From Candidatus Zhuqueibacterota bacterium (GTDB lineage Bacteria; Zhuqueibacterota; Zhuqueibacteria; Oceanimicrobiales; Oceanimicrobiaceae), in assembly GCA_029262055.1 (NCBI GenBank), contig JAJDAD010000066.1, forward strand, positions 1 through 60,440: DNA of 60,440 nt, in the 5' to 3' direction. The translations under genes and the position numbers were made by a program. Under the pieces are notes generated by a model. The model saw nothing but the letters and a program-made list of their open reading frames with translations, was not told where the DNA came from and ran no database searches. Within the stretch, counting starts at the first letter, position 1. Each line of letters opens with the position of its first letter. Positions 44,413-60,440 of the stretch are shown here, one piece after another.

Positions 44413-44440
44413 AGAGGTGATTCATATATGAGTCACCTCT
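44413..44440 (-). terminator. Hairpin overlapping the stop of the beta-lactamase-family gene
   Basis: AGAGGTGA ... TCACCTCT enclosing the palindrome TCATATATGA makes a near-perfect 28-base hairpin whose right arm contains the stop codon of the minus-strand gene. The following minus-strand sequence is AT-rich (ATAATATATTG) but lacks a T-run, so termination is likely but not certain. Confidence 0.5.
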
Positions 44441-46038
44441 TTCGGGACAGTTTGATAAACGAAGGGAGAGCAAAGCCCTCCCCTATCGCCGTTCCACTGC
44501 CTACTAAATTCCCGTTAACATACCTCAGTTTTAGGGAGATAGTATGCTCCCCCTTGCCAGCATCTGGAGTAGGAATCGTTGAATTAATCGTTCCTGTCAA
44601 TATTCGGTAAAAGAATTTGATGTGGTTCACAACAGTATCCGGCTGATCGACGAAATTTAAATCCATAACTTGGGCCACTGGCTGGTTTCCAATCTTTGCT
44701 GTAACGCTGGCATCGTCAGCAAAGGTCATTGTTATCGGGATTTTTCCTTGATAGGTCTTAATCTCTCCTTGCCATTCCCCTTCTAGTTTCGGTTCTACTT
44801 TAAACGGAACTCGGAGATTCTCGACAGCCCCCATAGGTTCAATGAAGTTCATAATATTTTTCATATATCCAGGTATCAGCATGTCAACTATCTGAATGGC
44901 AGTCATCATTGTGATTCCACCGGTCATATTTGAGATGCATGCCACTGCAATTTTCTGTTCTGGGAGAAGTAGCAGCATGGAATTAGCACCCCCGATTCTT
45001 CCATCAGATATGAGGGAAAGGTTTTGACCGTCATTGACGATGCCCCAACCCAGATTGTACCGATGATAGTTTGGCAAATCTGGATTGTCTGCCTTATGGG
45101 TAAAATCAAGAGTTTCATTTGTCAAGATTGATTTTTGATCCTTAAGAGGCGTTTTCAGATGGAAAAGCCCATAGCGGATCAAATCATGAGCGCTGGAGAA
45201 AAGACCACCACCACCTCTTGGGTAGAAATCATAGTCAACTTCAAAGGTCTTGTTTTTTGAAGTGTATTTTCGGGCAATCGTTTTTTTCATTTCGGCTTCA
45301 ATGTGTACCTTGGTCCTTCATGCCAAGTGGAAGAAGAACCTCCTTTTCCATGAAGTTTTCAAAGGTTTGACCAGTTACCACTGGTATCATTTGTTCGGGG
45401 AATGCAAAAGCAAGATTGGAGTATAAGAACATTTCCCCGGGTGGGGAGATGGAGAAACCGTATCGGTTAATTAACTCTGACACAGGCAATGGTGGATTCG
45501 GATCATCATCCTTGTGTTCTTTCCACAAATGAGGAATTCCGGCCGTCATGCTTAGTACGTGATAAACCTTGATTTGTGAAGCTATGCCCAAATAATCTCT
45601 CAACATTACTGGGCCAAGATATTTTTCCACAGGGTCATTGAGCTTGACTAGACCCTTTTCTACCAAGAGCATCAATCCTGTTGCGGTGATCGATTTTGAA
45701 AGAGAACCCAATGCATAAATGGTGTGTGGAGTGGCTTTAAGCATATCCTCCCTATTAGCCCAGCCAAAGGCTTCTTCCCAAAGGATCCTTCCTTCTTTGG
45801 CCACAGAGACTGCCATTGAGGGTATTTCCTCATCACTGACCATATTGATAATTTTCTTGCGGATTTCGACAAATCTTTTATCTCCAGGGTTTTTGGCCTG
45901 ATTCCAGGGAACATTATGTTTTTCAGAACATTCGCAAGGCATCGCCGCGGATAAATGATTTGAGAAAGATACGATAACCAGAAATGCCGCTGAAACAACC
46001 CGCACCATGGATACTTTTTTGCTGTTTATTCTCTGCAT
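44433..46038 (-). pseudogene. Frameshifted serine beta-lactamase-family hydrolase
   Basis: The first part (45298-46038) has a signal peptide (VRVVSAAFLVIVSFSNHLSA), the S-x-x-K nucleophile motif GSLSKSIT, and a Tyr motif LYSNLAFA; it stops after GMKDQGTH. The second part (44433-45290) continues the same fold (DFYPRGGGGLFSSAHDLIRY, GWGIVNDGQ) in a frame shifted by one base. Reading across the T at the junction joins GTH to EAEMKKTIARKY, so a single-base change splits one about 530-residue class C/penicillin-binding-protein-like gene. A sequencing error is possible; otherwise it is a recent pseudogene. Confidence 0.85.
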
Positions 46039-46228: not shown

Positions 46229-46660
46229 TGGTACGCCCGGCATGGGCATGAACTAACGGGGTGTAAGTCCCTTATAGGCGAACTCCTGTATCTATTCTAA
46301 GTACAACGACTATTAGCGAAAGGTAACTGCAAAGCCGCGAGGCTTTGCGGGAAGGAAGCCTGCAGCAAAACAGTGAGCCAAAGCCGGCGTTGAGCCGGGC
46401 GTAAATGATGCGGTGGTGCTGCGTCAGTTCAAGTTCCCCAGTCAAGCCTTATCCGGGGAGGTTTGCTCAAGTGCGATGCAGACCGTTTGGTGAACATCCG
46501 TCGGACTCCCGGCAAACCAAGTCCAATCCGCGTAGTCTGCGATCAACTGAGCGGAGCTAAGAACAGGATAACAACCAAATGGTCTCGCATAGCGACTTCT
46601 GGAGCAATCCGGTCGTTGATTAGGCAGAAGTCAGCAATGGTATTGACTCCAGGAGGCGTT
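46229..46660 (+). mobile_element. Group II intron remnant (5' part)
   Basis: TACGCCCGGCATGGGCATGAACTA at 46232 onward and GGTGTAAGTCCC match the start of the intron at 59809-60440. The domain I block GGTAACTGCAAAGCCGCGAGG ... GAAGCCTGCAGCAAAACAGTGAGCC (46322-46380) follows, then GCGTAAATGATGCGGT and a diverged copy ending GGCAGAAGTCAGCA (46623-46636). Reverse transcriptase and domains V/VI are absent. It is a decayed, non-functional fragment. Confidence 0.75.
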
Positions 46661-46711
46661 CGAATTTTTGTAATGCCAGAGGCTCCGCATCGATGACTAT
46701 GGACTTTTAGT

Positions 46712-47839
46712 TCACTTGTTTATTTCCTTTGTCGAGTTGAGCTTTTCGCTGCTTGATGTTAACGGCAGGTTTATGAGAATTTTCACGCCATTGTCGGACG
46801 AGATATTGAGCCTATAATCATCGCCATAATATAAGGAAAGCCTTTCCTTAATCCCCGAAAGTCCAAATCCTTCTTTATCTCTGTTTGGGATAAATCCCTT
46901 GCCATTATCCCTAATCTCGATTTGACAGTAACTATTTTGGCGCGTACAGTTGACTTGAATCATACCTCCGGTTTTTGAGGGTGCAATCGCATACTTAATG
47001 CTGTTTTCAACAAGAGGTTGAATGATCAAGCCCGGTGCCCAAAAACCAGCAAGGGATTCCTCCATTTTTATGTGGTACTTGAGACGCTTTCCAAGCCTGA
47101 CCTTTTCAATCTCCAAATATTGGCGAACCACATCCAGCTCATCAGTCAATTTCATCAATTCGTGATTGCCGGTTTCCAAAGTGTAGCGAAAAAGGTGTGA
47201 CAGCTTTTGCACCATTTCCTCAGCTTTCATCGGATCCACCGGAATAAGGCTCACAATTGAGTTCAACGTGTTGAAGAGAAAATGCGGATTCACTTTGGTA
47301 CGCAATGCTTCAAGCTCCGCTTTTGATTTCAATTGTAACAAACGCTGTTCATTGACCTCTTTCTCGGCTAATTTGGCTACGGCTTCTTGTAACTTTTCCC
47401 TCAACACAAAATAACTATATCCTATAGCGCCAAAAAACAAAGCGAGAAATGTCGTCCAAATAAAGAAAGTTTTCGCGTCTGCCAGGGCTATACTGAAATC
47501 AAAGAGTAAATTGTTGATTCCCCAGCCGAGGAGGAGGCCACACCAACCACCGATTGAGAAAATTCCAGTCAGAGCAGCTAATTTCTTCCAATTGTTTTTG
47601 ATTCTCTCTGGTTGTAGTCCCTTACTGAAGAGATAAATAAATCCACCAATGCATTGAGAAAAAACGAAAGAATGCCCAAATCGGGCTAACAAGAGCGTTA
47701 TTGGCGTGGTAAAGAAAAACAGAGTAATTACTACTGAGATTAAAGAGTTCAACACCCAAAGGGCGAGGAGCTCTCTCAAGTCGAGGGCGTTTCGGAGGTC
47801 GTTTTGCAATGATTCAAATTTGATTTTCATTTTTGTCAT
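46712..47839 (-). CDS. LytS/YehU-type sensor histidine kinase
   Basis: 375 residues with four predicted membrane helices (about 28-155) and a His_kinase domain: LRTKVNPHFLFNTLNSI with the phospho-His, NSIKYA (N box), DNGKGF and GFGLSGIKERL (G boxes). This class normally pairs with a LytTR regulator, which is not adjacent. It overlaps the M28 peptidase gene upstream by 4 bases, so it belongs to the end of that operon. Confidence 0.92.
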   Translation of the reverse strand: MTKMKIKFESLQNDLRNALDLRELLALWVLNSLISVVITLFFFTTPITLLLARFGHSFVFSQCIGGFIYLFSKGLQPERIKNNWKKLAALTGIFSIGGWCGLLLGWGINNLLFDFSIALADAKTFFIWTTFLALFFGAIGYSYFVLREKLQEAVAKLAEKEVNEQRLLQLKSKAELEALRTKVNPHFLFNTLNSIVSLIPVDPMKAEEMVQKLSHLFRYTLETGNHELMKLTDELDVVRQYLEIEKVRLGKRLKYHIKMEESLAGFWAPGLIIQPLVENSIKYAIAPSKTGGMIQVNCTRQNSYCQIEIRDNGKGFIPNRDKEGFGLSGIKERLSLYYGDDYRLNISSDNGVKILINLPLTSSSEKLNSTKEINK

Positions 47840-49395
47840 AATGAGAGGACAGTTAATCTATGTTCCATATTTGCTATCCGTAGGACCAGATGGTGAATGA
47901 GCTCTCCGATTCTTATCATCTTGGTAAAGTTTATTTTGTTCGCATCATCCGTCGGTTTATGATAATCTTGCTGCATATAGTCATAAAAGAAAACACTCGG
48001 TATACCGTTTTCCAAATAATGAAAATGGTCACTCCGGTAGTTATGTCCACTACTCAAGCTATAGTCCAGGTTGAAATCGACTGTTTTAGAATTGACTTCT
48101 TCAATGATATCAAAAAGTTCCTGGCCCAAATAGTCCGACCCGATAGAGTGAATGGAGTCAATGCTGCCTCGTCCAACCATATCAAGATTAATGTTAACGA
48201 CAATATCGCTAATGTCGTCAAAATTATTGGTAAAATGCAATGCGCCCAACAATCCTTTTTCTTCAGCAGCGTGAAAGATAACCAGAATGGACCTCCGGTT
48301 CTTTTTACTTGTTGCCAGAACTCTCGCCGCCTCCAATAATACAGTCGTTCCGGATGCATTATCATCAGCGCCGTTATAAATCAGCTCTCCTCTCATGCCA
48401 AGATGATCATAATGTGCTCCTAATGAAACAAACTCCTTTTTTAAGTTTGGATCATGCCCTTCAATGATTCCGATGACATTGGTTGCTTTCTTATTCTCTC
48501 GTATCACCTTCAAATCATACTCAACTTTATGCTCTAATTCAAAAGAAGGCAATTTTTTATGCGATTTTGACAAGCTCATTAATTGGTCATAGTTGTATTC
48601 TTCGTTTTCAAAGACTTTTCTTGCGGATTCTTTGTTTAGAATAAAGGCCGGAATGCTTTTGACCTTGCTAAGCGTATCACCCCGGTTCTCCGTATATGCA
48701 AAAGCAGGGGATTGGGAAGTCCACTTCAGTAGATTCCAGGTATTGAGTACCTTTTGATTGGGAATAAATAAAACCCCGACAGCCCCTTTGGATTTTGCTA
48801 TAGAAATTTGTCTTAATAGCTCTGCATAATGATTCCGTATGCTACCCTGAAAGAAATCGTCCCGGTCAATCGACTCTTCGAGTAATATTAAAACCGTTTT
48901 GCCCGTTACATCCAAATCCGCATAATCATCATGACCACCTTCATTTGCTCTACCATATCCAACAAAAACAGTATTTGAGACGCTTGAAGTATGAACTGAA
49001 TCTGAATACTCACCAGGAATATTCAGAAAGTCGTTAACAAAAGTAAACGTTGTTTCCTTATTGCCGTACGGCTCTAACAAGCTCATCCGGGAGTCGATTC
49101 CATAATAGGTCAATTCAAGATTGAAGTATTGAAAAAAAGTTTCATTCTCCCCATACGGCTTAACTCCGTATTTTTGCAGTTCCTTCGCGATAAAGAGAGA
49201 AGCTAGTTTTTCTCCTCTGGTTGTGGCTTCCCTGCCCTCCAATTCATCTGAAGCCAAAAACTCCAAGTTGGACTTTAAATGATTAAGACTCAAAAGCTGG
49301 TCTGCTGAAAGTGCCCTTAACTTATTTGATGTAGTGCAGCTCATAAAAATCACTGCAGTTACTGAACATGCTAAACGAAATAAGTCATTTTTCAT
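47836..49395 (-). CDS. M28-family metallopeptidase lipoprotein with PA domain
   Basis: 519 residues. An N-terminal signal with a possible lipobox (AVIFMSC) suggests a lipoprotein. A PA-type insert spans about 130-270. The catalytic part has LGAHYDHLG, GADDNASGTT (Zn Asp), HAAEEKGLLG (Glu pair), NLDMVGRG and a late GHNYRSDHFHY His. Aminopeptidases of this family release N-terminal residues. It is followed by the LytS kinase with a 4-base overlap and preceded by the outer-membrane protein gene by 16 bases. Confidence 0.93.
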   Translation of the reverse strand: MKNDLFRLACSVTAVIFMSCTTSNKLRALSADQLLSLNHLKSNLEFLASDELEGREATTRGEKLASLFIAKELQKYGVKPYGENETFFQYFNLELTYYGIDSRMSLLEPYGNKETTFTFVNDFLNIPGEYSDSVHTSSVSNTVFVGYGRANEGGHDDYADLDVTGKTVLILLEESIDRDDFFQGSIRNHYAELLRQISIAKSKGAVGVLFIPNQKVLNTWNLLKWTSQSPAFAYTENRGDTLSKVKSIPAFILNKESARKVFENEEYNYDQLMSLSKSHKKLPSFELEHKVEYDLKVIRENKKATNVIGIIEGHDPNLKKEFVSLGAHYDHLGMRGELIYNGADDNASGTTVLLEAARVLATSKKNRRSILVIFHAAEEKGLLGALHFTNNFDDISDIVVNINLDMVGRGSIDSIHSIGSDYLGQELFDIIEEVNSKTVDFNLDYSLSSGHNYRSDHFHYLENGIPSVFFYDYMQQDYHKPTDDANKINFTKMIRIGELIHHLVLRIANMEHRLTVLSL

Positions 49396-49411
49396 TTCTT
49401 TCTCTTCAAGA

Positions 49412-50695
49412 TTAGAATGATAATTTTACCCCTAGTTCTAAAGATGTCTTGGTAAACAACATACCAAACTCCGAATTCTCCTGCCCTTCGAAGTAAGATG
49501 AACGAAGCCAACCGTTTAAATGCGAATTAAAAGAATAGCTGAATGTTGGTATTAATATTCCGCTTCGATCGACCAGGTTTCCGAGAAGAATGAGCTCCAG
49601 CCCAAATTTTCGCTTGGGTAGATAGGCGCGGAAGAAACCATAATGCCGCATGGCGCCATCGGGGCTGAGCGTGTTGAGCGCATTGTAAAACTCAGGGAAA
49701 GAAGCCTCATTGGGTGGAAGCTCTCTAATCTGTTTTTGATGGAATAACGTGAATCGCCGCCATTGAGACCAATTGTCAGAAGTAAGCCCAGCGCGATCGT
49801 AGAAATACTCCGCCATCAAGTTCAGACCGGAATCGAAAGTATACTGCATTCCCAGCAAGAGCTCGTAGAAAAGCCGTTTACTGGATTGATACTTGACTGT
49901 GAAAAGAGAATCACCCAAAAAGATTTCATGATCGGCTCTGTCCAATGCCCGATGATAAAGTTCATTGCTGCCAACCTGGGCAATGAACTCTGAGTGCAAT
50001 GCAAGATGGTCGCCATAGACATAAGCGGTATTGAATCCAAACTTGACCTTCTCTTTTTCTTTCCAGTGGCCAATTAAGGAGACATCTACATCTTTGATAA
50101 AAGAATAAAATTTCACAGCCAACTCATCAGATGCCAACCTGATTCGTCCTTCCGATTTTAGCTCGTTTGCGTAGACCAAGGTTAGAGAATGATTACCCCA
50201 ATAGGTGTCGAGTGCCACTATGGGGCGACCCTGAAAGCGATTCAAGCGATCAGAAGGGTCGCCGGCATCTTTGGCCGGTTCAACGACACCGGTTGGGTTG
50301 AAGGCAAAGCCAGTGCCCCATTTTAGTATTTTACGGCCAACAGTTACTTGCACATGGTCTCCCAAAGGATGGCCAAAATAAAGCTCTCTCAAGGTGTATT
50401 CATAATTGGCGTCTTCAAGTTCAGAAAAAAGAGCGTTGGCTTTAATGTCGAGAGTAAAAGCGCGCCAGTTCAAAAATAAATCTGCACTTGAAAGGCTATT
50501 GTAGCGTGGTTGCGGCACGAGCTCATTGTCAACATTTAAAGGTGTTGAATTCAATTGTTGATATTGAGTTTCATGGATAGCACTGAAGCGATATCTGAGC
50601 TTTCCATGATCCTTGAATGTTCCTTGTGACCACGCCAAAGAGAGAAATAGGAATTGCCCGAAAACGACAGAAATCAAAAAGGATTTGGCTTTCAT
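49412..50695 (-). CDS. Predicted outer-membrane beta-barrel protein
   Basis: 427 residues. A signal peptide (ISVVFGQFLFLSLAWS) is followed by alternating short hydrophobic and aromatic strands ending in the terminal F (LGVKLSF), the usual outer-membrane insertion signal. Strands such as RYRFSAIHETQY, VTVGRKILKWGTGFAFNPTG and LTLVYANELKSEGRI suggest a DUF1302/porin-like barrel. It overlaps the LolA-like gene by 4 bases, implying partnership with it. Confidence 0.8.
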   Translation of the reverse strand: MKAKSFLISVVFGQFLFLSLAWSQGTFKDHGKLRYRFSAIHETQYQQLNSTPLNVDNELVPQPRYNSLSSADLFLNWRAFTLDIKANALFSELEDANYEYTLRELYFGHPLGDHVQVTVGRKILKWGTGFAFNPTGVVEPAKDAGDPSDRLNRFQGRPIVALDTYWGNHSLTLVYANELKSEGRIRLASDELAVKFYSFIKDVDVSLIGHWKEKEKVKFGFNTAYVYGDHLALHSEFIAQVGSNELYHRALDRADHEIFLGDSLFTVKYQSSKRLFYELLLGMQYTFDSGLNLMAEYFYDRAGLTSDNWSQWRRFTLFHQKQIRELPPNEASFPEFYNALNTLSPDGAMRHYGFFRAYLPKRKFGLELILLGNLVDRSGILIPTFSYSFNSHLNGWLRSSYFEGQENSEFGMLFTKTSLELGVKLSF

Positions 50696-51420
50696 TTCAA
50701 CTGGGTCAAATAATTCTTGTTGAAGTATTTTTCTTGTAACGTTTGGGGTTCATATTCGAGAAATTCCATAATCGTGTGGCTATTATTGCGCAAACGGTCA
50801 TGTAGCGTCATTTGCGTTAAGGTAAGACGGTTGTGAATCATTTTAAATTCATCGTAGGTGACGGATTTATAATGTTTCCCGGAGGCAAGGTATAATTCTG
50901 CTTTGACCGGAAGCGATTCTATCTTCGTCACCCAATATTCCACACGTTGATAAGTTGTTTTATCATTAGATGCCGTTAACTCCAGCCTAAAGCATTCCCG
51001 GCCGCCAACGGTTTCTTCGCTCACGCTTGTCGCATTGTAATTTTCTGAAAAGGTGATATCCGCCACGTCACCGTTGGAAGCCTCGCCCAATAGACGCTGT
51101 AGCGGCGATATGCGTATAGGACGACGGGTGTTTGGGGCAAAAATCCACATGTTGTCTTCCAACATCAGCAAATATTGCCCTTTCTGGTCCGGATCGAGAA
51201 ATCGCACCAAGCTTTTTTTATCGCCTTTCACCATCACTTCAAGATTTCTTGCATTTTTTTGTTTATCATTTTTGAAGCTTGTGATCCGTAATCGCACAAC
51301 AAAAGAGGGCCATGCATTACGATACTGATCAGAGATTCGCAGGATTTGTGACCCCTTATCTTCTGCAAAGAGCATTGTGCTAACCAAAAACAATGTGCTT
51401 AATAAAAATATCTTTTTCAT
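50692..51420 (-). CDS. Outer-membrane lipoprotein-sorting LolA/LolB-like protein
   Basis: 242 residues from ATG 51420, where MKKIFLLSTLFLVSTMLFA is a clean signal peptide and GTGAGG lies just upstream. The fold matches LolA-like carriers (KGDKKSLVRFLDPDQKGQYL, DNMWIFAPNTRRPIRISP, VEYWVTKIESLPVKAELY). Such proteins shuttle lipoproteins or lipids across the periplasm. Paired here with an ABC/FtsX transporter and a barrel, it likely carries a substrate from the inner to the outer membrane. Confidence 0.88.
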   Translation of the reverse strand: MKKIFLLSTLFLVSTMLFAEDKGSQILRISDQYRNAWPSFVVRLRITSFKNDKQKNARNLEVMVKGDKKSLVRFLDPDQKGQYLLMLEDNMWIFAPNTRRPIRISPLQRLLGEASNGDVADITFSENYNATSVSEETVGGRECFRLELTASNDKTTYQRVEYWVTKIESLPVKAELYLASGKHYKSVTYDEFKMIHNRLTLTQMTLHDRLRNNSHTIMEFLEYEPQTLQEKYFNKNYLTQLK

Positions 51421-51572
51421 GTTTACCTCACTTGTTTTAAGTTTGATTCTGTTGATTAAGTCCGGCAAAACCTCCTGGAGGTTATTTTATCGTCGCAAAT
51501 CAGCAGCGGCGATTATTGCCGTCCGCCGGCTTTGCCTTGTTATGTGTTTATCTCTTTTTTGGTTTAGTGCTA

Positions 51573-52406
51573 CTAACGATATTGCCCAAACAGCATTGTT
51601 GAACATATTATGTTCATTTCAAGTGCCTCGTTCTCTTCTTCCTGTTTTCTGATGTAGTCAACGAAAAGATTCCTTTTATCCGGGTGTATCTCGATTAACT
51701 CTTGGCATCGCTTCTTGAGATTCCTGTACATGTATTCATTTGATTCTTTCATTTCATCTTTGTTGATAATAATTTCATCAATTAGTCTCATCCCGGCATC
51801 AGAGATTTGCTTAAGAAGCACTGACTTTTTTTCCATGAAAGGGTGTGAATATGCTCCTCCGTCATCGCTATATCCATCATCAATAATTATTAGCCCGCCC
51901 TCTTTTAGGCATTTTGAAAGTTTAGTTAGTGTTGAATAATAATCACCTAGAACGGGACCAATAGCACCAAGAATGATGATATCATAATCTCTTAGATCAG
52001 AAATTCTGACTCTTATATCATCACATTCAAAACAGCAATACTCTTCAATATTGAATTCTTTTGCTTTGTTATTGGCTTCATCGATAAATTCTTCAACTGC
52101 ATCTATTCCATGACAATGACAGTCAAACTCTTTTGCTAATTTTATTAAAACTGCCCCTTTCCCACATCCTAAATCGAGAACTTTAAGATCTGCATGGTCA
52201 GTCGTGTGCTTTTTCACTAATTTGAGTACGACTTCAGGGGATGCACCAAGCTCCCATAGATCCTGCAAAATGTAAGGCAAATATGGAAACAAATTACTAT
52301 CTGTTCCATCCATGGCCATTACAACGCTTTCTTCAACTGAGCTTATCAATTTGCACTCCTGGTTCTTGCACATAACAACAGAGTCACTAAATATGCCCCA
52401 ACGCAT
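51573..52406 (-). CDS. Class I SAM-dependent methyltransferase
   Basis: 277 residues. The Rossmann motif I VLDLGCGKGAVLIKL (about 75) and an acidic motif II (CHGIDAVEEF) mark SAM binding; motif IV is YDIIILGAIGPV. The N-terminal 50 residues and the C-terminal helical region (KKRCQELIEIHPDKRNLFVD) are not recognised. It overlaps the permease gene by 20 bases, yet a role in transport is not obvious, so it may modify the exported molecule. Base composition is AT-richer than neighbours. Confidence 0.9.
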   Translation of the reverse strand: MRWGIFSDSVVMCKNQECKLISSVEESVVMAMDGTDSNLFPYLPYILQDLWELGASPEVVLKLVKKHTTDHADLKVLDLGCGKGAVLIKLAKEFDCHCHGIDAVEEFIDEANNKAKEFNIEEYCCFECDDIRVRISDLRDYDIIILGAIGPVLGDYYSTLTKLSKCLKEGGLIIIDDGYSDDGGAYSHPFMEKKSVLLKQISDAGMRLIDEIIINKDEMKESNEYMYRNLKKRCQELIEIHPDKRNLFVDYIRKQEEENEALEMNIICSTMLFGQYR

Positions 52407-53616
52407 CCACGATTCTCTTGCGTGAAGCCTTGAAAGCTGGAATTAACGTCGAAAGCACCGCCGTCAGAAGCATAAAGATGAATGTACCAAGGTAAATCTT
52501 CCCTACATAATGCACATTCAGGGGAAATCCAGTGGTCGACCCGGGCGGTGGTGGCATCATAATTCCGGATTGATTGATGACAAAAGATAGAACCAAACTC
52601 AGCAATAACCCTGTTGCGCTCGCCAGAAGTCCGATGACCAATCCTTCCATCAAAAAATTTGCCAGGACTCTTTTTTCGGAAGTGCCAATGGCCATCAACG
52701 TACCAATTTCTTTCGTACGCTCAAAGATGGACATCATCATTGTATTGGAAGTAGCAAGTAAAACGACGATAAATATCAGGATGCCCAGAAATGTAAAGAT
52801 AGCGTTGTAGAGCTTAACGACTGCACGGTAAAATGTTGCTAACTCATGCCACTTTTTGATTGCAAAGCCGCTGAGATGTTCAGAGAGTTGTGCTGCAACT
52901 TTGTCAGTTGAATCGGTTTCATTTAGCACAACAATAATATTGGAGACACGCTCCGAATTGAGAAGTGTCTGAGCAGTAGAAAGCTTAACGCTCAAGAAAC
53001 GAACATCCATTTCGGGAACACCCGTTGAAAAGATGCCCACAACTTTCACATCCATCGCATTCAAAATACCAGTGGTCGTTGTCGTCATTACAGTCAGGTA
53101 GTCCCCGATCTCTGCTTTTAGAGATTTTGCCACACCTTTTGCGAGAATCACTTCGTCCTCATTTTGTGCAAAAACATCTTCACCCAGGTGATGCCCCGTC
53201 TCCATCTTCATACTAAAACCTGTGAGTTTCTGCTCCTTTTCCGGATTTACGGCCCGTCCCATAAAGGCAACTGACTTATCCCCGTTGGAAATCAAGCCCA
53301 TAAAAGAAATCCGCGACATGGCAAAACGCACCTCGTCCAATTTACCGATAACTCTAATGAGGCTGTCTGGCCTTGAAATGCCATATTGTAAAGGCATGTC
53401 CTCTTCTTTCTCTAAAGACTCGGGTTGAAATACCTGTAAATGACCGTACCGGCCGCGGATTGAAGTTTCGCTAAGACCCCAGAAGGAATACTTGATGAAG
53501 CCACCGGCAAGGATCAAAGCGATGCAGCCAAAAACCATTATCATGGATGTGATGAGTGTTCGCCGCATATTGCGGGTGACATTCTTGAAGGCTAACTTCA
53601 AAAACTTTGTTTTCAT
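52387..53616 (-). CDS. FtsX/LolC-like ABC transporter permease
   Basis: 409 residues. One N-terminal membrane helix (SMIMVFGCIALILAGGFI), a large periplasmic MacB_PCD-type domain (about 45-270), and three C-terminal helices (IFTFLGILIFIVVLLATSN, LVIGLLASATGLLLSLVLSF, LGTFIFMLLTAVLSTL) form the FtsX/MacB/LolCE design. It follows the ATPase gene and overlaps the methyltransferase. Confidence 0.93.
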   Translation of the reverse strand: MKTKFLKLAFKNVTRNMRRTLITSMIMVFGCIALILAGGFIKYSFWGLSETSIRGRYGHLQVFQPESLEKEEDMPLQYGISRPDSLIRVIGKLDEVRFAMSRISFMGLISNGDKSVAFMGRAVNPEKEQKLTGFSMKMETGHHLGEDVFAQNEDEVILAKGVAKSLKAEIGDYLTVMTTTTTGILNAMDVKVVGIFSTGVPEMDVRFLSVKLSTAQTLLNSERVSNIIVVLNETDSTDKVAAQLSEHLSGFAIKKWHELATFYRAVVKLYNAIFTFLGILIFIVVLLATSNTMMMSIFERTKEIGTLMAIGTSEKRVLANFLMEGLVIGLLASATGLLLSLVLSFVINQSGIMMPPPPGSTTGFPLNVHYVGKIYLGTFIFMLLTAVLSTLIPAFKASRKRIVDALGHI

Positions 53617-53672
53617 AATAAGTCCCGATTAGTCACCATTCGTAAACTGCACATTGCGAAAGATGATACACG

Positions 53673-54347
53673 TTAATTGGAGATCCTTCCATCTCGAATG
53701 TTTACAACACGTTTAGCGATCTTGACTATTTGTGGATCGTGAGTCGAAAAAATGAATGAGACGTTCTCTTCCCGGTTTAGTTTTTCCATCAACTGCAAAA
53801 TATCCTGCGCAGTTTGTGTGTCGAGATTAGCTGAAGGCTCATCTGCCAGGACGATCTTAGGTTGATGCACCAAAGCTCTGGCAATGGCTACACGCTGACG
53901 TTGGCCACCAGAAAGCTCACGAGGTTTGTGCGCACGCAAAGATAATAGTCCGACTTCATCAAGCATCTCTTCTACCCGCTTCTTGCGCTGCTGGGCAGAC
54001 ACTGTTGTCAATAATAAAGGATATTCCACATTCTCAAAAGCGTTGAGAACAGGTATAAGATTAAAGGACTGAAAGATGAAGCCAATTCTTGCCTGCCGAA
54101 GACGATGTAGTTTTGACGAGCCGTTATAACTTATAATATTCTCTTCGAAACGAATCGTGCCGGAGGTGGGCTTGTCAATCAAGCCGATAAGATTGAGAAG
54201 GGTGGTCTTACCACTCCCGGAAGGACCGGAGATAGCGACAAATTCGCCTTCTGCGATGCTTAGATTGACATCTCTGAGTGCAGGAATCAGAACCTCTCCC
54301 AGCGAATAAGTTTTGCAAATATTTTCAAATTCGAGTCTTTTTTTCAT
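53673..54347 (-). CDS. LolD/MacB-type ABC transporter ATPase
   Basis: 224 residues. Walker A GPSGSGKTTLLNLIG (about 40), Q-loop FQSFNLIP, signature LSGGQRQRVAIARALVHQP, Walker B IVLADEPSANLD and H-loop FSTHDPQI are all intact. The class energises FtsX-like permeases for substrate extraction from the inner membrane. It lies 13 bases after the TPR gene. Confidence 0.95.
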   Translation of the reverse strand: MKKRLEFENICKTYSLGEVLIPALRDVNLSIAEGEFVAISGPSGSGKTTLLNLIGLIDKPTSGTIRFEENIISYNGSSKLHRLRQARIGFIFQSFNLIPVLNAFENVEYPLLLTTVSAQQRKKRVEEMLDEVGLLSLRAHKPRELSGGQRQRVAIARALVHQPKIVLADEPSANLDTQTAQDILQLMEKLNREENVSFIFSTHDPQIVKIAKRVVNIRDGRISN

Positions 54348-54360
54348 GCTTAAATCCAGA

Positions 54361-55011
54361 TTAGTTTGAATTTTTGTAAGAAGTTACTTTTGCAGTGGCT
54401 TTTTCCGCCCAACTGGATTCCGGGGCAACTTGTTTGGCGAGTTCAAAATTCTTGATAGCTTCTTGCTCGTTTTTATCTTTTTCTAAGGCCAACCCGAAAT
54501 TATAATAGACCATCGACTGTTCTGTCAGTGGCCAGTGCTGAAATTTCTTACTGCGAACAATGTAGATGAAATCCTTCAGGCTATATTGTAGGCGATGGAA
54601 CATTGCCGGTAAATGCATGCTATTCGTAGCACGAACCACGCGCACCATTAAATCATCAGGCGTCATATCAACAGCTTTATCCAATTTGTCTACCCCCGTT
54701 TCCACGTGACTCATTTGGTTCTGGGGTGAAAGGGCATCACGACCTTTCAGGGTATAAACACTACCCAAATAAGCCAGGGCCAAACTATTCTCCTTGTCTA
54801 ATTCAAGAGCTTGAGTCAGCAGTTTTGCGCTTTTCCCCACGGCCTTTTTGTCGCCAGCTACGCCCTGGTCATGATATACTATTGCAAGATTGACCAATAC
54901 CTCAACATTCTGAGGGTCGGCGTTCAATTTCTCTTGCAATGATTGAGAATTATCTTGAGCAAAGGCACCCGTAAAAGCTAACAATAGACAAGTGAATACC
55001 AATTGTTTCAT
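54361..55011 (-). CDS. Periplasmic TPR protein
   Basis: 216 residues with a signal peptide (LVFTCLLLAFTGAFA) and two to three TPR-like repeats (VEVLVNLAIVYHDQGVAG, SLALAYLGSVYTLKGRDA, SMVYYNFGLALEKDKNEQEA). It is the first gene of the array leading to the ABC transporter and starts after an about 220-base upstream gap. A scaffold or adapter role is inferred. Confidence 0.88.
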   Translation of the reverse strand: MKQLVFTCLLLAFTGAFAQDNSQSLQEKLNADPQNVEVLVNLAIVYHDQGVAGDKKAVGKSAKLLTQALELDKENSLALAYLGSVYTLKGRDALSPQNQMSHVETGVDKLDKAVDMTPDDLMVRVVRATNSMHLPAMFHRLQYSLKDFIYIVRSKKFQHWPLTEQSMVYYNFGLALEKDKNEQEAIKNFELAKQVAPESSWAEKATAKVTSYKNSN

Positions 55012-59808: not shown

Positions 59809-60440
59809 GTGTGCAAACGGATGTGTACGCCCGGCATGGGCATGAACTACTGGGGTGTAAGTCCCCTATATGTGAACTCCTGTATTTGTCTTCTAAAGTA
59901 CAGCAACTATTAGCGAAGGGCAACTGCAAAGCCGCGAGGCTTTGTGGGAAGGAAGCCTGTAGCAAATCAGTGAGCCGACGAACAGAAACATCATATAAGG
60001 CCGAGTCCGCGGGTAAGTTGGCACATGATAACAAAGCCCGAGGTTCAGCGGAGGAGCCTGCCCCGGCCTTGAGCCGGGGGTAAATGATGCGGTTGTGCTG
60101 CGAAAGTTCATGTCCTTATCCGGGGAGGTCTGTTTAATCATGCGATGTTCGAGTTAGTGGCAAGACCCGGGTGGGCCCCCGGGAGAGCAAGCCCAGGCAT
60201 GTCAGTGCGCTATCAACTGACATGAGATACGAACCGGATAGCAGCCACAAGCTCGGCATAGCGGCCGGCGAGGTAACTCGCTGGCTCAAGTTAGGCAGAA
60301 GTCAGCAGAGGCCATAGTAGCCGAACGCTCGGTTTAATTGCCGAGACATGGTGAAGGGCCGAACATTGCGGTCAAGGAGGAGCATTGTCACGCTCGTCTT
60401 GCGGCACTTATGCCCGACCGGGCTCAGTCGTGAGCGGCGC
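59809..60440 (+). mobile_element. Group II intron, 5' part, continuing past the window
   Basis: The intron begins near GTGTGC (59809) or GTGTACGCCC (59823) with CGGCATGGGCATGAAC, then GGTGTAAGTCCCC, the domain I block GGCAACTGCAAAGCCGCGAGG ... GAAGCCTGTAGCAAATCAGTGAGCC (59921-59974), GGGGGTAAATGATGCGGT, and continues through CATGAGATACGAACCGGATAGC to GTGAGCGGCGC at the window edge. Reverse transcriptase and domains V/VI would lie beyond the end. A small frame (ATG 59736) runs into the intron start and is probably the interrupted 5' exon or a by-product. The exact 5' splice site was not resolved. Confidence 0.75.

Follow-up and report, generated by a model that had tools for sequence, protein, structure and literature searches.

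Eight co-oriented genes on the minus strand of a contig from a Candidatus Zhuqueibacterota bacterium, at positions 46712-55011 of the window, raise the question of whether they form a single system and, if so, what that system transports. The window is the whole stretch of DNA that was analysed (60,440 nucleotides, GenBank contig JAJDAD010000066.1); it is an entire contig, C77, of a 5.7-Mb genome that, like the named relatives from candidate division KSB1, is probably metagenome-assembled. All eight open reading frames (ORFs) are real. Pfam and NCBIfam assignments identify a TPR protein, an ATP-binding cassette (ABC) ATPase, an FtsX/MacB_PCD permease, an S-adenosylmethionine (SAM)-dependent methyltransferase, a LolA_like protein (PF17131), an M28 peptidase and a His_kinase (PF06580) protein, and the remaining gene encodes a predicted outer-membrane barrel. 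A first-pass annotation had read all eight as a possible export array for a modified peptide or lipoprotein, with built-in sensing. The neighbouring genes are an old, conserved module, though the eight are not one ancient array. Judged by sequence comparison, the conserved core consists of the LolD-like ATPase, the FtsX/LolCE-like permease, the LolA_like carrier, the barrel, a LytS-type kinase and a LytTR regulator.

Conserved gene order defines this core. When genome contigs were searched with the LolA_like protein, only two close relatives were found, both KSB1 metagenome-assembled genomes, with 92% and 59% identity. Orthologous KSB1 operons retain the order TPR-ATPase-permease-LolA_like-barrel, and in four genomes (G024, G080, G017 and G016) the barrel gene is followed by a kinase gene and then by a LytTR-type response regulator gene. 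The G080 contig stops shortly after the ATPase gene, so that no TPR gene is seen there. The ATPase-to-regulator block of six genes also occurs, in identical order and with each gene homologous, on a plasmid of Vibrio sp. HDW18 and on a Plesiomonas shigelloides plasmid. These modules differ from that of the window in having an intact regulator gene and in lacking the TPR, M28 and methyltransferase genes, and their function is not described in the papers that we searched. Identities between Vibrio and window proteins are 47% (ATPase), 36% (permease), 34% (LolA_like), 22% (barrel, E 1e-11) and 30% (kinase, E 4e-44), and the Vibrio regulator is ~37% identical to KSB1 regulators. Pairwise identity matrices of the six core genes correlate with one another (r 0.83-0.97, six or seven taxa), showing that the set is inherited together. 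In relatives, the core genes are therefore not scattered, as genes of an accidental array would be, and conservation of their order across two phyla supports the earlier proposal that a dedicated ABC-LolA-barrel route spans the envelope and has sensing attached to it.

The LolD-like ATPase (53673-54347, PF00005; this and the other genes described here are on the minus strand unless stated) is 44-90% identical to its relatives. The FtsX/LolCE-like permease (52387-53616, PF02687 and PF12704) is encoded by a single permease gene and is 34-96% identical to permeases of relatives with equal gene order. Among NCBIfam models, the ATPase is closest to LolD and the permease to LolCE, but the scores of 233.6 bits (TIGR02211) and 108.7 bits (TIGR02212) are under the equivalog cut-offs of 307.75 and 362.45, respectively. 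A separate LolCE permease on another contig of the same genome (C83) scores above the equivalog cut-off, at 366.8 bits, and the ATPase and permease in the window are therefore not the housekeeping set.

The LolA_like carrier (50692-51420, PF17131 E 1.7e-47) is periplasmic and has a signal peptide; its called TTG start is too long, and the signal peptide begins at an ATG at 51420. The structural model of the carrier has a predicted local distance difference test score (pLDDT) of 90, and its best match in the PDB is NE2245 (3buu), with a template modelling (TM) score of 0.84-0.91. The model also matches a DUF1329 protein (4z48, TM 0.75) and Porphyromonas gingivalis LolA3 (9tp6, TM 0.73), whereas TM scores normalized to the query reach only ~0.3-0.48 for classical LolA and LolB, compared with 0.84 for NE2245. 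Its partner, the outer-membrane beta-barrel (49412-50695), is recognized from its predicted model and its adjacency to LolA_like; a Pfam search with the barrel protein gave no match at E 0.05, and none to DUF1302. The AlphaFold model is porin-like (pLDDT 77) and matches OmpF, Occ channels and AlgE in the PDB (E ~1e-10, TM ~0.5). A barrel profile search of 82 KSB1 genomes detected 15 full-length barrels, and a LolA_like gene directly adjoins all 15. The genome that contains the window also has a second module (contig C16, L105, 1673-6848) with the genes LolA_like, permease, permease, ATPase and barrel. Further modules occur in a KSB1 sister clade (L106, L108, L109, L110 and L043); L106 and L108 have different kinases and regulators, and L043 has a small Nitro_FeMo-Co family gene between permease and LolA_like.

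The LytS-type membrane histidine kinase (46712-47839, PF06580 and the HATPase domain PF02518) is intact and is 26-52% identical to kinases at the equivalent position in relatives. The intact LytTR regulator gene that lies beside the kinase gene in G024, G080, G017, G016, Vibrio and Plesiomonas is not present in the window. Instead, we detect a LytTR response-regulator fragment (46647-46715; tblastn E 1e-5 to the G080 regulator and 3e-5 to that of G024). The GTG start of this fragment overlaps the LytS stop by 4 bases, as the G024 regulator gene overlaps its kinase stop, and there is a stop at codon 3, after which 20 residues are 60-70% identical to relatives' regulators. The regulator is truncated by a degenerate group II intron remnant (46229-46654, plus strand; RF02001, 34.2 bits at 46331-46435) that is multicopy in the genome, and parts of which are 68-90% identical to other copies, including 59825-60307. 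A related and better-preserved copy lies at the contig end (59825-60359, plus strand; RF02001, 117 bits; RF01998, 59 bits). With the regulator gene reduced to a fragment by intron debris, this genome has a broken control circuit, and the built-in sensing proposed earlier is ancestral but no longer whole here. An orphan LytTR regulator elsewhere in the genome (G000, contig C27, 37925-38665) is 55% identical to the G024 regulator and 54% to that of G080, which are 64% identical to each other. The orphan is the best candidate for a regulator moved intact to another place in the genome, and a possible stand-in partner for the LytS kinase of the window.

The core is best read as a dedicated ATP-driven export route that carries an amphiphilic lipid or lipid-like metabolite across the envelope, from the inner membrane to the outer-membrane barrel. 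We assign this reading a probability of about 0.5, and we infer the substrate class, direction and mechanism. Judging by their families, the LolD-like ATPase and FtsX/LolCE-like permease would pull the molecule out of the inner membrane's outer leaflet at the expense of ATP. The hydrophobic groove of the LolA_like carrier, as its predicted fold suggests, would then hold the acyl or polyene part of this cargo and ferry the molecule across the periplasm. The predicted barrel, which is invariably paired with the carrier, would take over the molecule and insert it into the outer membrane or pass it through. The LytS-type kinase and LytTR regulator, given their conserved linkage, would set expression of the route in genomes where both are intact.

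Clues to the substrate come from sister modules. The module of the KSB1 genome G063 adjoins a type I polyketide synthase (PKS) with KS, AT, KR, DH and ACP domains, of which 2071 amino acids lie within the stretch examined before the gene runs off its end. A Rahnella module adjoins genes for a ketoacyl synthase and a malonyltransferase, and a Paraburkholderia module adjoins P450 and phosphopantetheinyl transferase genes. In Escherichia coli (L093, 12807-17647), an ABC-LolA_like-barrel set that is found in 375 of 5,426 complete genomes lies inside a cluster that encodes a holo-ACP synthase, a FabZ-like protein, an ACP, an aminomethyltransferase, two ketoacyl synthases and a malonyltransferase. 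By analogy, this content recalls the cyl operon, which makes the lipid granadaene and encodes the ABC exporter CylA/B (PMC6985545). A LolA2/LolB2 pair in Bacteroidota belongs to a flexirubin pigment locus (PMC11885536), and P. gingivalis LolA3, whose fold is similar to that of the carrier in the window, binds LolB very weakly (PMC13103446). The synthesis-linked sister modules, the flexirubin pair and the weak LolA3-LolB binding make a lipid-like cargo more likely than a lipoprotein but do not prove it. A short precursor peptide upstream of the operon had also been suggested, but in a comparison of small ORFs (20 codons or longer) that precede the TPR gene, the window and its nearest relative, G025, share no peptide, and none is convincing; a conserved, leader-like segment of ~137 bp lies there. 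The peptide or lipoprotein substrate first proposed thus finds no support in the upstream region or in the neighbours of the sister modules.

Several observations weigh against lipid export. The operon in the window holds no lipid-synthesis gene, and neither do the Vibrio and Plesiomonas modules, which are closest to it in order. The linkage of sister modules to synthesis genes is anecdotal, as it has no random-neighbourhood control. The synthesis-linked proteobacterial barrels are more divergent, and those of Aliiroseovarius and Paraburkholderia give no detectable blastp match. The barrel model is of moderate quality, as its pLDDT and TM values indicate. By analogy with LolCDE homologues, which move lipoproteins, a lipoprotein cargo remains a candidate, as does import.

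A lipoprotein cargo would make the module a dedicated Lol variant for a single lipoprotein or a small number of them, which would go to the outer membrane or use the barrel to reach the cell surface. We consider this unlikely. The ATPase and permease are indeed nearest to LolD and LolCE, the carrier is in the LolA superfamily, and the operon-linked M28 peptidase has a possible lipoprotein signal both in the window and in G025. However, the Lol scores are below the equivalog cut-offs, the genome has its own LolCE elsewhere, and no conserved lipoprotein gene accompanies the module in Vibrio, Plesiomonas and most KSB1 relatives; the weak binding of LolB by LolA3 and the PKS and fatty-acid genes beside sister modules also argue against it. 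The LolA_like protein and barrel might instead act in the retrieval or repair of lipids of the outer membrane, and LytS would sense the state of the envelope. DUF1329/DUF1302 genes for LolA-like and barrel proteins accompany RND pumps for apolar compounds (AmeD, PMC6394551), the carrier resembles a DUF1329 structure, and linkage to a kinase suits a stress response. Nevertheless, such homeostasis or import is distinctly unlikely, given that ATPases and permeases of the LolCDE/MacB/FtsX family extract or expel rather than import and that linkage to synthesis clusters favours export.

Known systems resemble the module only in part. It shares with LolCDE-LolA-LolB a LolD-like ATPase, a LolCE-like permease and a periplasmic carrier of the LolA superfamily, but it has one permease gene, a PF17131 carrier that is not a classical LolA, a barrel instead of LolB, and two-component genes, in addition to its sub-cut-off scores and the separate housekeeping LolCE. 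RND/MMPL-DUF1329-DUF1302 systems for apolar compounds, such as AmeD terpene efflux, likewise pair a LolA-like carrier with a barrel, but the engine in the window is an ABC ATPase with an FtsX permease rather than an RND protein, and its barrel lacks a DUF1302 match. Bacterial sterol transporters are another example of trans-envelope systems of the RND/MMPL-DUF1329-DUF1302 type. MacAB-TolC and DevBCA have a similar MacB/DevA-like ATPase and FtsX-fold permease, whereas the operon in the window has no membrane-fusion protein (none among the eight genes, by Pfam) and no TolC-type channel, and has the LolA_like protein and porin-like barrel in their place. The E. coli and Rahnella modules have the ATPase, permease, LolA_like and barrel genes in equal relative order, but they lie within a lipid or polyketide synthesis cluster, have their ATPase and permease genes separated by an additional small gene, and lack LytS and LytTR.

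We found no described ABC-LolA_like-barrel system in the open-licence literature. We raise, as a tentative and somewhat doubtful suggestion, that the module represents an undescribed class of ABC-powered, LytSR-controlled pathways in which, in distant phyla, a LolA_like-barrel pair delivers a lipid of polyketide or fatty-acid origin to the outer membrane. The way in which lipid-like natural products and lipids other than lipoproteins get across the periplasm to the bacterial surface is largely unsolved. If lipid export is the function of the core, deletion tests could address this question, as the four-protein route is compact, has a dedicated regulator and is found in Vibrio and Plesiomonas, which can be cultured, and some E. 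coli carry sister modules.

The methyltransferase gene does not belong to this core. Homology between the window and G025 extends from 55148 to 48273, with a sole break between permease and LolA_like, where the junction between aligned flanks is 937 bp in the window and 28 bp in G025. Alignment to G025 and a reconstructed circular attC site delimit an integron gene cassette of 885 bp (51491-52375, TTATG...GCGACG). The insert starts at G|TTATGTG (52376/52375), and near its other end lies ACATAACAAGGC..., which matches the arm of an attC-type site that this genome has on contig C53. The attC of the cassette lies at 51491-51545 (R'' ACATAAC ... GCGACG) and, once the cassette is circularized, base-pairs with GTTATGT at the cassette start. 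The joined ends form a 61-nucleotide attC with an R''/R' stem of 7/7 pairs (ACATAAC/GTTATGT) and an L stem; the fold has an energy of -28.3 kcal/mol, and equal stability was reached by 0 of 1000 composition shuffles (z -5.4). The cassette encodes a class I SAM methyltransferase of 266 amino acids (51573-52373, PF13847). Homologues with 28-56% identity occur in 16 other KSB1 genomes, but none is in the operons of the relatives examined, and an attC-like inverted repeat (read by eye) comes after the homologue in G027. On this sequence evidence, the methyltransferase gene is a recently inserted mobile integron cassette that is foreign to the core module, and its proposed role as the modifying enzyme of the route consequently loses its support. 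We rejected the methyltransferase as a core component, since it is absent at the G025 junction and from relatives' operons and bears an attC.

An integron integrase most likely placed the cassette inside the operon. The genome encodes an integron-type integrase on contig C60 (364 bits, above the curated cut-off). An attI-anchored array next to intI is not what we see: the integrase is on C60, the cassette is inside the operon, and the insertion target, G^ATAAAA, is neither attI nor attC. A simple attC scan over stretches of the C60, C46 and G027 contigs detected no strict attC. On C53 (L080, ~1723-1782), an intact attC-type site lies near a TIR-domain-like gene (TIR read by eye). Arrival by another path, such as illegitimate recombination, would fit the lack of an attI or array beside the gene and the fact that the two-sided target sequence is not exactly recoverable from G025. 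We regard it as very unlikely, because the cassette start and R'', near the opposite end of the insert, are exact reverse complements, the circular attC fold is strong, the genome has the C60 integrase as well as a further attC that shares the arm sequence, and a KSB1 homologue has an attC-like site after it. Cassette insertion at non-classical attG sites has been described (Loot et al. 2024, cited in PMC12901181). Like cassettes at attG or secondary sites, this one is a single gene with an attC at a genomic site other than attI; it differs in residing, in sense orientation, within a conserved operon, in a KSB1 bacterium that is uncultured. The window provides a natural case of an integron cassette entering an operon outside any integron, and it bears on how cassettes spread in chromosomes.

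The overlaps that seemed to join the genes need revision in one case. Those of 4 bases between LytS and M28 and between barrel and LolA_like are confirmed. Called from 52406, the methyltransferase ORF has 11 codons too many, which come from the permease end and the junction read in another frame. With the true start, the ATG at 52373, the gene is 13 bases from the permease stop, and the 20-base overlap of these two genes vanishes as a start-codon artefact.

The M28 peptidase (47836-49395, PF04389 E 3e-41) is also outside the conserved core, being common only to the window and G025 (65% identity over 374 amino acids), whose contig ends inside M28, leaving its kinase and regulator end unseen. 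That all eight genes are one functional unit, with the methyltransferase and M28 modifying the exported molecule, is extremely improbable. Their shared orientation would allow co-transcription, and the sense-oriented methyltransferase may be expressed; however, this gene is a cassette missing from all other copies examined, its homologues sit elsewhere in other genomes, and M28 is otherwise present only in G025. The G025 junction without the methyltransferase largely refutes such a unit. What stands of the proposed array is the eight ORFs and a linkage of the core beyond chance.

The first gene of the operon encodes a secreted TPR protein (54361-55011, Pfam TPR), with orthologues of 30-88% identity in G025, G063, G024, G017 and G016. 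It is kept in KSB1 modules and was not found in those of Vibrio and Plesiomonas. Beyond the other end of the operon, one member of an adjacent ORF pair (44433-46038, minus strand) matches the N-terminal part and the other the C-terminal part of the same Beta-lactamase-family (PF00144) serine hydrolase, and the pair is therefore probably a single broken gene.

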